This document shows, in pieces, positions 35,734-41,715 of a stretch of 42,508 nucleotides of DNA. The translations under genes were made by a program, and so were the position numbers. The stretch comes from Pseudomonadota bacterium. GTDB lineage: Bacteria > Pseudomonadota > Gammaproteobacteria > Xanthomonadales > Rhodanobacteraceae. The notes beneath the pieces are model-generated. The model was not told the origin of the DNA. It made no database searches and saw only the letters and a program-made list of their open reading frames with translations. Every line of letters starts with the position of its first letter. Position 1 is the first letter of the stretch. The stretch covers positions 1 to 42,508 of the forward strand of contig JAJXWU010000018.1 in the NCBI GenBank assembly GCA_021781425.1. The letters are read 5' to 3'.

Positions 35734-37009
35734 GGAACTACAATGCGATGCACGTGATGGCTCCCAATACCGATATTATGCTCGCCGTCGGCCAATACGA
35801 GCGCAAAATGGCCGAGCTCGCCAAAGTCCCGTTGCTCTTCTTCGACGACCTCGCCTTCAAGCCCCAGGCGGCCTTCGGTCGACGAACATCTTCACGACAG
35901 ACTGTACCCAGCATTATGTGGAAGCTTGGCGCATCGACTGCGATGGATCCGGATGTGGAGTGCGGTCGGGTTCGTCTGGCTAGTCGTTCCGTCGGGGTAT
36001 CGTTCGACCTACGGCTTTGTTCCGTAGAGAATCCATTTCTGATCGAGAGTTCGCATAATGCCAAGTGATCAGTCCGGTAAGTACGTTGATCATAGTCGGC
36101 CGGAACGATGATTCAGAGTCGACAAGCGCGCGCACCTGATTCGTCGCCGGAAGGTATGACAGAAATCGCATGCGCGATAAGATCGAAAGGCTTCGCGCCG
36201 GGTATGACCGCGCACGAGCGTCCCGGCCCAACAAGCTCTCGGCGTTCCTCGTTGCACTTGCGTGTCCAGGTACGGAAAAGATTGACGCTGGCGACTGGCT
36301 TAAGGTTTACGTGGATCCTGATCCGGAGTGTGTGTAGATTCAGCAAGCAAAGTCTGTGACCAACACCGCGTCAAAGCACAGACGTAGCTTGCCGCGGCAC
36401 AACCAAAGTATGTCCGGCCGTTTAAATTCAATTAGTTAGCAAGATACATTTCGCGCGCCCGTCGCAATCCAGTAAGCAAGGTTAGTACCGCCTGAGGTTG
36501 CTTTCGGCTGTCTTTGCGCTCGCGGAAATCTCAGGGGTGGAGTGAACTCTGGATCACCAGGTTCCTCCATAAGATCGGAAAGTTCGCGCTGCGGTGAGGT
36601 GGAGCATTCAAGACGCGACCCTCGATGTCATCGCACAAAGCTGAACTGTCGGCGGATATGTTGCCACCAAGAAAGCTTGCCTAGTTGGAAACGACGCGAG
36701 ACCTTGGATTGCTTAGTAGATGATTTTCGAGGATCAATGCCGCAGATGCAGCTGGATTGACCCCGAGCGCTGCACGCGAGCGGAGATGCCAATCTCAGAA
36801 AACAGACCCATCGACCCATCGTGGATACCGCGATCAAGGGCTACCCGTGTCGGTCTATAACGCACTATGAGGGTATTGGTTTACCTGTCACAAAAGGGAT
36901 TCACTCGTTGGATTTTGGCGCTGATCGCTCGGTGATTTCGAACTTCACAGGGCGCCGGACTAGGGAGCAAAACACCTACACCCTAGGTCTGTGTTGATTT
37001 GCCGTATCA
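35734..37009. other. Gene-poor, lower-GC stretch between the EAL gene and rpoH
   Basis: About 1.3 kb with no gene I can support. G+C is visibly lower: two 60-base rows I counted (36421 and 36661) have 42% and 48%, against 65% for a row in rpoH. Short ORFs here have no recognisable motifs. The first 140 bp still look coding (see the pseudogene entry). No tRNA, IS end or CRISPR seen. Confidence 0.6.
35748..35888 (+). pseudogene. Possible gene remnant 'MHVMAPNTDIMLAVG...'
   Basis: An open frame encoding 'MAPNTDIMLAVGQYERK', 'MAELAKVPLLFFDDLAF' and 'KPQAAFG' with nearly all codons ending in G or C, as in real genes of this genome. After about 45 codons this bias disappears; a shifted frame then stays open for about 48 codons ('VDEHLHDRLYP...'), which suggests a frameshift. 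The 117-aa track ORF is the unshifted extension. I cannot name the family. Confidence 0.3.
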
Positions 37010-37015
37010 TATAAT
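37010..37015 (+). promoter_or_regulatory. Candidate -10 box (TATAAT) for rpoH
   Basis: A consensus -10 hexamer 108 bp upstream of the rpoH ATG, in an AT-rich stretch ('gccgtatcatataatg'). No good -35 lies 16-18 bp upstream. A start here would put the CIRCE site inside the transcribed leader, as in many HrcA-controlled genes. Confidence 0.4.
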
Positions 37016-37030
37016 GTACTATTCAGTACA
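37015..37030. promoter_or_regulatory. Inverted repeat overlapping the putative rpoH start
   Basis: Arms 'tgtact' and 'agtaca' with a 4-base spacer, overlapping the end of the TATAAT box and the expected start point. Could be an operator for an unidentified factor. Confidence 0.35.
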
Positions 37031-37032
37031 AG

Positions 37033-37054
37033 AAACCGGCCGCAGGGCCGGTTT
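37033..37054. terminator. GC-rich hairpin in the rpoH leader
   Basis: Perfect 9-bp arms 'aaaccggcc' and 'ggccggttt' with loop 'gcag'. No T-run follows, so it may be a leader structure instead of a terminator; it sits between the candidate promoter and CIRCE. Confidence 0.4.
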
Positions 37055-37070
37055 GAACTTCTGGCTTGGA

Positions 37071-37097
37071 TTAGCACTCCAAGTCTGCGAGTGCTAA
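37071..37097. promoter_or_regulatory. CIRCE operator (HrcA site) upstream of rpoH
   Basis: Exact match to the CIRCE consensus: 'ttagcactc', nine bases, 'gagtgctaa'. It ends 25 bp before the rpoH ATG, just before the ribosome site 'gggaggt'. CIRCE is bound by the heat-shock repressor HrcA, normally at groESL or dnaK operons. Here it would place the heat-shock sigma factor itself under HrcA. Confidence 0.95.
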
Positions 37098-37122
37098 AAT
37101 TGCGTTCATACGGGAGGTTTCA

Positions 37123-37986
37123 ATGACCGCTACCGCTTTGATTGCCAACAACCTGCCGATCCCCAGCGCGCTCGGCAGTCTCGACGCGTACGTCAACGCC
37201 GTGCACCAGATTCCGGTGCTGACCGTCGAGGAAGAGCAGGCGCTGGCGCGCCAGTATTCGGGCGAAAACGATCTGGATGCGGCCAAGCGTCTGGTGATGG
37301 CGCATCTACGCTTCGTCGTGCACGTCGCGCGCGGCTATTCCGGGTACGGTTTGCAACTGGCCGACCTGATCCAGGAAGGCAATATCGGTCTGATGAAGGC
37401 CGTCAAGCGCTTCGATCCGGACATGGGCGTGCGCCTGGTGTCGTTTGCCGTGCACTGGATTCGCGCCGAGATGCACGAGTTCATCTTGCGCAACTGGCGC
37501 ATCGTCAAGATCGCCACGACCAAGGCGCAACGCAAACTGTTCTTCAACCTGCGCAAGTCGAAAAAGCGCCTGGGCTGGATGAACGCGGCCGAAGTCGCCG
37601 CAGTGGCGAAGGATCTGGGTGTTTCCACCGCCGATGTGCTGGAGATGGAGTCGCGTCTGTCCGGTCGCGACATGGCGTTCGACGCACCGGCCGATGCGGA
37701 CGAGGACGAAAAACCCGCGCCGGTGGCCTACCTGGTGGACAACAACGCCGATCCGTATCACGCGCTGGAAAATGAAAGCCAGGAAGAATCCGACTTGGGT
37801 TCGCTGCAGAATGGCTTGGCCAAGCTCGACGCGCGTTCGCGCGACATCATCACGCGGCGCTGGCTCAAGGATGGCGACAAGGCGACCTTGCAGGAACTGG
37901 CCGACGAGTACGGCGTTTCGGCCGAGCGCATCCGCCAGGTCGAAGTCAACGCGATGAAGAAGATGCGCGCTGTCTTTGCGGCGTAA
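37123..37986 (+). CDS. rpoH: Heat-shock sigma factor RpoH (sigma-32)
   Basis: 287 residues. Ribosome site 'gggaggt' about 5 bp before the ATG. Sigma region 1.2/2.1 '[26 protein letters not shown]', 2.2 '[40 protein letters not shown]', the RpoH box '[17 protein letters not shown]', and region 4.2 '[28 protein letters not shown]'. It directs transcription of chaperone and protease genes after heat shock. In enteric bacteria rpoH follows ftsEX directly; here it lies about 11.6 kb further on. Upstream is a perfect CIRCE operator, downstream two hairpin terminators before the convergent priA. Confidence 0.98.
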
Positions 37987-40291: not shown

Positions 40292-40711
40292 GCAGCGCGG
40301 AGCGAGCGGTTTGACGCAAAAATCATGGCTTGCGTGAAAATCGTAAGTTAATACTCAAAAACAGGCGTCAACATATTGGCAGTCAAGAGATTTATTGCTT
40401 ATCCACAAAGTATGTGGATAAGTCTGTGCATGGCCCGCCGAACAGAGTGGCGCCGGGCGCGCCGTTACGTGTGTGGGATTGTCTTGGTGAATTTTTAACC
40501 ACACTGACATAGTTATTATGAATCAATGATTTATAAACGAAAGATTGGTATACATTGGCGCATTTCAGGGACTGAACCTGCGCATCGTGTGCAGGATCAA
40601 ACGGCTGTGCAAAACCGGCGGTTACAGAATTGCGTTCAGGCCCGGTTTTCGCGTCAACCGCAGTGGGTTTCGCGCGTTCAATTGTGACAGACGAGTTTAT
40701 CCTTGAACGCC
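40292..40711. other. AT-rich intergenic region between priA and the ECF sigma gene
   Basis: 420 bases between two divergent genes, no ORF. Contains the paired DnaA boxes (40398-40422), a one-mismatch DnaA-like 'ttaaccaca' near 40495-40503, an AT-rich tract 'tgatttataaacgaaag', and a long-loop hairpin ('aaaaccgg' 40611-40618 with 'ccggtttt' 40642-40649) in the leader of the sigma gene. Confidence 0.6.
40398..40422. promoter_or_regulatory. Inverted pair of consensus DnaA boxes
   Basis: Arms 'cttatccaca' and 'tgtggataag' with spacer 'aagta'. Each arm holds the perfect E. coli DnaA box TTATCCACA, in opposite orientation, with 5 bp between them. The site is in the priA upstream region. Confidence 0.85.
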
Positions 40712-41314
40712 ATGACGCATACAATCGCCTTGACGGCTCCGGCCACCTGGAATTCCGCGCGCGTGGATGCGGCACACATCGGCGAGCGCACGCTCGATCA
40801 GTTCCTCAAAAGCGTCGAACGCCGCGCCCTGCGCATGGCCGAGCTGGCTACGTCCAACCGCGACGAAGCACTCGATCTGGTGCAGGACGCGATGTTCGGC
40901 TTCGTGCGCCATTATGCCGCCAAACCCGCCGGCGACTGGGCGCCGTTGTTCTACCGTGTGCTCGACAGCCGCCTCAACGACTGGCACCGGCGCCGCAACG
41001 TGCGCAGCCGCTGGTTGGCAGTGTGGACACACAACGCCGATGACGACGACGAACGCGACGAAATCGCACAGGCGCCGGACAGCAACGATCCCGGCCCGCT
41101 TTTGCGGCTGGCCGGCGACGAAGCCGGACAGGCCATCAACGTCGCGTTGACACGCCTGCCGCTGCGTCAGCGACAGGCGTTTCTGCTGCGCGTGTGGGAA
41201 GGTTTCGACGTGGCGGCAACCGCTAGTACCATGCGCTGCAGCGAAGGCAGCGTGAAAACGCACCTGTCGCGCGCGCTTGCTGCGCTGCGCCGCGAACTGG
41301 AGGATCACGCATGA
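40712..41314 (+). CDS. ECF-type RNA polymerase sigma factor
   Basis: 200 residues from the ATG at 40712; the track begins three codons earlier at a TTG. Sigma region 2 ('LDQFLKSVERRALRMAELATSNRDEALDLVQDAMFGFVRHY', 'PLFYRVLDSRLNDWHRRR') and region 4 ('ALTRLPLRQRQAFLLRVWEGFDVAATASTMRCSEGSVKTHLSRALAALRREL'), joined by an acidic linker with 'NADDDDERDE'. Sigma factors of this kind sit in a conserved set with a small membrane protein and a DUF3106 protein in beta- and gammaproteobacteria, as here. The stop overlaps the next ATG (ATGA). Target promoters are unknown. Confidence 0.9.
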   Translation: MTHTIALTAPATWNSARVDAAHIGERTLDQFLKSVERRALRMAELATSNRDEALDLVQDAMFGFVRHYAAKPAGDWAPLFYRVLDSRLNDWHRRRNVRSRWLAVWTHNADDDDERDEIAQAPDSNDPGPLLRLAGDEAGQAINVALTRLPLRQRQAFLLRVWEGFDVAATASTMRCSEGSVKTHLSRALAALRRELEDHA

Positions 41315-41715
41315 AAACATCGAGCATGAATACATACGGACTTCCGCAGTGGACCGATCAGGCCAAGGAACTGCTCGATGAATCGGCGCGCGATCTGGAC
41401 GCCGCTGCCTTGTCGCGCCTGAACCGCGCGCGTCAGGCCGCGCTGGCGCAGCGTGCGCCGCGCCGCCGTGTGGCGTGGCTGTTTCTGCCGGCGGGTTTTG
41501 CCGGCGCCTGTGCGCTTCTGCTCGCTGTGGGCGTGTGGCACGCGCGTCGTCCGCAGACCGCGCTGCTTCCCGCGCAGCCGACGTCGGCGGTCGCGGGCAA
41601 CGCCTTGGACTCGGCCGACCTGGACATGATCGCGAGCGGGGACGACATGGAGATGATGCAGGATCTGGATTTCTACGCCTGGCTCGATACGCAGGATCAG
41701 GGCAACAGCGGCTGA
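41311..41715 (+). CDS. Small single-pass membrane protein, DUF3619-like, putative anti-sigma partner
   Basis: 134 residues. A cytoplasmic N-terminal helix region ('LPQWTDQAKELLDESARDLDAAALSRLNRARQAAL'), one membrane helix ('VAWLFLPAGFAGACALLLAVGVW') and a short acidic outer part ('DSADLDMIASGDDMEMMQDLDFYAWLDTQ'). Small proteins of this layout follow ECF sigma genes and can bind the sigma factor; DUF3619 is my best match from memory. No zinc-type HxxxCxxC motif is present. The ATG overlaps the sigma stop; the next gene's ATG shares its last base (TGATG). Confidence 0.78.
   Translation: MKTSSMNTYGLPQWTDQAKELLDESARDLDAAALSRLNRARQAALAQRAPRRRVAWLFLPAGFAGACALLLAVGVWHARRPQTALLPAQPTSAVAGNALDSADLDMIASGDDMEMMQDLDFYAWLDTQDQGNSG

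Follow-up and report, generated by a model that had tools for sequence, protein, structure and literature searches.

A CIRCE operator overlapping predicted promoters of rpoH: comparative support for HrcA control of the heat-shock sigma factor in Gammaproteobacteria

In the textbook view, the HrcA repressor with its CIRCE operator and the sigma factor sigma32, encoded by rpoH, are separate heat-shock systems that operate in parallel. Control of sigma32 in Escherichia coli is mainly post-transcriptional. In other bacteria, HrcA loses its activity when GroEL is titrated or when HrcA itself unfolds, and the support of HrcA activity by GroEL is established in Bacillus and Chlamydia. For this support, PMC8762339 cites Wilson 2005.

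The closest precedent for the locus described here is a 2004 comparative study, whose Table 8 (PMC545781) predicts a CIRCE at −51 ahead of rpoH in Geobacter sulfurreducens; hence, control of rpoH by HrcA is not new as an idea. Dependence of rpoH promoters on sigmaE has been reported for rpoHP3 of E. coli and for fam of Bordetella (PMC2956729, PMC3490749). In Agrobacterium tumefaciens the roles of RpoH and HrcA are independent, to judge by the title of Nakahigashi 1999 as cited in PMC11764788. The literature covered was incomplete, as Permina and Gelfand 2003, the likeliest source of rpoH-CIRCE predictions in beta- and gamma-proteobacteria, lies outside it; within that coverage we found no paper describing a CIRCE ahead of rpoH in Gammaproteobacteria, a correlation of such a site with hrcA, or its fusion to sigma70 or sigmaE promoter elements.

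The operator and the promoter region of rpoH

The window (the whole stretch of DNA analysed, 42,508 nucleotides) carries at positions 37071-37097 of the + strand the sequence TTAGCACTCCAAGTCTGCGAGTGCTAA, a CIRCE of structure TTAGCACTC-N9-GAGTGCTAA without a single mismatch over the 18 arm positions, and relatives have the element in the same place upstream of rpoH. With as many as 3 mismatches allowed, the window yielded no second match, and 100 shuffles gave a chance expectation of zero. A gap of 25 bp (37098-37122) lies between the CIRCE and the start codon, the ATG at 37123. The gene that follows (37123-37986, + strand, 287 amino acids) matches two curated profile models of the heat-shock sigma factor, TIGR02392 (416.5 bits, cut-off 323.1) and NF005143 (438 bits). 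A first-pass annotation, made from the letters of the window, had described a perfect CIRCE 25 bp before rpoH; coordinates, mismatch count and profile matches all bear this out, and the downstream gene is a true rpoH.

An unguided promoter scan gave a sigma70 promoter that coincides exactly with the CIRCE: TTAGCA-18-TAAAAT, extended by TG. The extended −10 element (TGC-TAAAAT, 37092-37100, + strand) takes TGCTAA from the right arm and is completed by the next three bases; the rpoH CIRCE of the window contains the extended −10 TGCTAAAAT, and the sigma70 element is clear there. The −35-like hexamer TTAGCA (37071-37076, + strand) is weak (4/6) and forms the start of the left arm, so that its bases are fixed by the CIRCE and provide no independent evidence. 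Comparison across the class was more informative. The third base after the CIRCE is a T in 109 of 114 rpoH sites, thus completing TA-N3-T (binomial p ~1e-57 against local composition), and conservation on the 3' side ends abruptly beyond it. After the groES CIRCE of the same genomes, in contrast, a T is found at this position in 1 of 19 sites (Fisher p = 8e-17). The difference argues that the right arm is part of a −10 element at rpoH and not at groES. By both the scan match and the conservation, the operator lies in or directly beside a promoter.

When the loci were aligned on the CIRCE, a second conserved block, GGAACTT, appeared, with its first base 16-17 bp upstream of the CIRCE. At least 6 of its 7 bases are present in 108 of 175 loci (the figure for a control window is 3 of 175), and the spacing from GGAACTT to the TC of the left arm is nearly always 16 or 17 bp. 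In addition, positions 10 (T) and 12 (A) of the CIRCE spacer are biased at rpoH but not at groES (p = 5e-8 and 6e-5). This bias lacks mirror symmetry and is therefore not explained by the symmetry of HrcA. In relatives, the TC of the left arm and the T and A of the spacer form a predicted sigmaE-type −10, TCTNA. The version in the window is weaker than that of relatives: the −35 is TGAACTT (37054-37060, + strand; 6/7 to GGAACTT), and the possible −10, TCCAA (37078-37082, + strand), which spans left arm and spacer at a spacing of 17, is weak. The genome has rpoE (TIGR02939, 321.2 bits, cut-off 236.15).

Counted from the sigma70 start, the predicted rpoH leader has only about 16 nt. A Shine-Dalgarno sequence, GGGAGG, lies at 37112-37117 (+ strand). 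An RNA thermosensor of the E. coli type was looked for: folding of the first 240 nt was no better than that of shuffled sequences (z = 0.00), and a scan against Rfam gave no thermosensor even at E = 1. A sub-threshold Rfam match to P9 (19.2 bits against 43; 37032-37104, minus strand) is unrelated to thermosensors. A GC-rich hairpin at 37033-37054 was considered as a terminator and rejected, as it has no T run and was not scored as such. The ~1 kb upstream of rpoH (36070-37070) contains no convincing open reading frame. Elsewhere in the window, 40703-41715 contains a gene for a sigma factor of the ECF type (NF006550) and, after it, a small open reading frame that overlaps it and may encode a membrane partner.

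The whole genome (2.65 Mb in 265 contigs) was scanned for CIRCE at up to 3 mismatches, and a single further site was found upstream of groES, with 2 mismatches. The groES upstream region also carries a sigma32-like promoter, CTTGAAA-13-GCCCATCT (13/14; 0 of 300 shuffles). The hrcA gene lies on a contig other than that of rpoH (TIGR00331, 317.8 bits, cut-off 197.2) and is followed by grpE and then dnaK. Autoregulation of hrcA through CIRCE was rejected for this genome, as no site was found upstream of the gene at up to 8 mismatches. A return limb from sigma32 to hrcA was sought but not established: the best sigma32-like match ahead of hrcA was 10/14, which is not significant (P ~0.1), and it was inconsistent across the order.

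Distribution of the site and co-occurrence with hrcA

Among the genomes of the family that have rpoH, 57 of 58 carry a CIRCE ahead of it at a nearly fixed position; up to 4 mismatches were accepted in this count, and nearly all sites have 0-2. In the rpoH region, Dyella ginsengisoli and a genome of the same family match at 95.6% over 1.6 kb, which makes Rhodanobacteraceae (Xanthomonadales) the probable family. Two genomes, G021 in the family and G077 in the order, have hrcA and lack the rpoH site.

Genomes drawn evenly across the GTDB class Gammaproteobacteria were searched with a pattern made of the CIRCE core, 10-40 bp, an ATG and, at the right distance, the RpoH box QRKLFFNLR. Matches came from at least 114 of the 369 genomes, a lower bound because the pattern tolerates few deviations, while the reversed pattern used as control matched none. 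Carriers include Dyella, Pseudoalteromonas, Rheinheimera, Thioalkalivibrio, Methylocaldum, Methyloversatilis, Nitrosomonas, Aromatoleum and Thauera. Outside the class, no match was obtained among 299 sampled genomes of the same phylum. A CIRCE before rpoH is hence not rare and extends across much of the class. Three records, L103, L130 and L203, which bear the titles Verrucomicrobia, Chitinophaga pinensis and Klebsiella pneumoniae, contain an rpoH of the proteobacterial CIRCE type and are probably mistitled MAGs.

Some lineages have changed the arms on both sides. In family f2 and in one genome of family f4 (G062) the arms are TTAGCAGTC and GACTGCTAA, and the dyad is kept; one further base differs in G060 of f2. 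At the level of loci, TTAGCAGTC-N9-GACTGCTAA is found in four of five (L244, L245, L262, L276 and L283), and the right arm of L244 is GATTGCTAA, again with the dyad preserved. Changes of this kind are what recognition by a dimeric repressor would predict. To scans based on the consensus, such two-sided variants would look weak. Another variant occurs in two genomes of one genus, G074 and G090, where the two perfect arms ahead of rpoH are separated by a spacer of 8 bp (L254:481-506 and L278:426-451, + strand); the initial scoring of both as lacking CIRCE was wrong.

The presence of the site was then compared with that of hrcA. Of 95 genomes of the order scored by a script, 72 had both and 19 had neither, while hrcA alone occurred in 3 and the CIRCE alone in 1 (p = 6.6e-16). 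After correction for the 8-bp spacer sites of G074 and G090, and with G077 and G098 read by hand (the latter has neither element), an rpoH CIRCE is present in 74 of 76 genomes with hrcA versus 1 of 21 without. For the sole genome of the order with CIRCE and without hrcA, completeness is just 80%. Families f2, f5 and f12 each include members with both elements and members with neither, and the hrcA-less members lack the site; deep phylogeny alone therefore does not account for the association. In the class sample, hrcA was found in 104 of 114 CIRCE carriers versus 164 of 255 non-carriers (p = 1.6e-8). Three of the 10 carriers without detected hrcA (G192, G233 and G411) are at least 96% complete. 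One genome of the order contrasts with the other members of its genus: no hrcA was detected in G071 (locus L024) and its rpoH has no CIRCE, while G080 and G095 have both, which makes the genus a natural test case for how the hrcA-rpoH link is lost.

The site is thus conserved, and it is lost where hrcA is lost. The first-pass annotation had proposed that HrcA controls rpoH, and had suggested a search for hrcA in the genome and for the site in close relatives. Both are there, and the joint gain and loss of hrcA and the operator lends the proposal good comparative support; the fusion to the sigma70 −10 and, in most relatives, the overlap with a predicted sigmaE promoter were absent from that annotation and are added here.

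A proposed circuit and the alternatives

Control of rpoH by HrcA is well supported by these sequence comparisons. We consider it quite likely that rpoH belongs to the HrcA regulon in the full sense, that is, jointly, that bound HrcA blocks the promoter, that folding stress releases it and that GroEL restores HrcA. At normal temperature, HrcA would occupy the CIRCE at 37071-37097. RNA polymerase would be kept off rpoH because the operator contains the sigma70 extended −10 and, in most relatives, the predicted sigmaE −10 as well; by covering the −10 of both promoters, HrcA would shut off both. Under protein-folding stress, HrcA activity would be lost and rpoH transcribed. Sigma32 would then drive chaperone genes, groESL included. 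As groESL has a sigma32-like promoter besides its own CIRCE, HrcA would act on it both directly and via rpoH, in a coherent feed-forward arrangement. Rising GroEL would restore HrcA, closing a negative loop. Binding, repression, release by heat and the GroEL-HrcA-RpoH loop itself are inferred for rpoH, the loop from the behaviour of HrcA in other bacteria. The HrcA and sigma32 circuits are probably wired in series in this organism, as in many other members of the Gammaproteobacteria.

The presence of an operator is silent on the size of its effect, and HrcA might bind the site and mainly set the basal level of rpoH, with heat induction left to translation and protein stability. As sigma32 control in E. 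coli is of this post-transcriptional kind, we regard such an arrangement as a serious though less probable possibility. The short leader of about 16 nt, the fold z-score of 0.00 and the lack of an Rfam thermosensor speak against it, although the fold and Rfam results are both compatible with a thermosensor that lies within the coding sequence. The sigma70 promoter score and the nearly invariant T of the −10 might be cited in favour of a palindrome maintained chiefly for its promoter, TTAGCA-N18-TGCTAAAAT, with incidental HrcA binding. A promoter, however, has no need of both nine-base arms, yet the arms, their spacing and their two-sided changes are kept, and the site vanishes in lineages without hrcA; we consider this explanation very improbable. 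More improbable still, to the point of being negligible, is a chance or relict palindrome without present function, given that no such site is expected by chance and that a nearly fixed distance is kept across families.

Returning to HrcA as a regulator of rpoH, a speculation, which we hold only tentatively, is that in a large part of the Gammaproteobacteria one HrcA operator gates both rpoH promoters, that free GroEL sets sigma32 besides DnaK and mRNA melting, and that the state of E. coli is derived, having arisen after loss of hrcA. If HrcA gates rpoH widely, a GroEL-sensitive repressor would stand above a DnaK-sensitive sigma factor in the hierarchy of many Gammaproteobacteria. Envelope stress, through sigmaE, would enter at the same operator, and the change of rpoH control in lineages that lost hrcA would have an explanation open to test.

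Comparison with known systems

The site of G. sulfurreducens resembles the one described here in being a perfect CIRCE at an almost equal distance from the start codon (−51 there, −52 here). The two differ in that G. sulfurreducens represents another phylum-level lineage and that its hrcA has a CIRCE, while the hrcA of the window genome does not; overlap with a promoter is not among the features given for the Geobacter site in the passages of PMC545781 consulted. In A. tumefaciens, as in the window genome, RpoH and HrcA are both present and both act on groESL; judging by the cited title they do so independently, whereas here we propose that they act in series. The rpoH promoters of E. coli (P3) and Bordetella (fam) are of the GGAACTT sigmaE type and lie just 5' of the gene, like the promoter predicted here, which is weaker in the window than in most relatives; the difference is that a CIRCE covers the predicted sigmaE −10 here. 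The E. coli genome, included as a control, gave no match to HrcA. Finally, the HrcA/CIRCE systems of groESL and hrcA-grpE-dnaK use the same operator and repressor, and the window genome has a CIRCE at groES too. Here the target is a sigma factor gene, and the right arm of its operator is completed to a −10 element, a feature of nearly all rpoH sites of the class sample (109 of 114) and of hardly any at groES (1 of 19).
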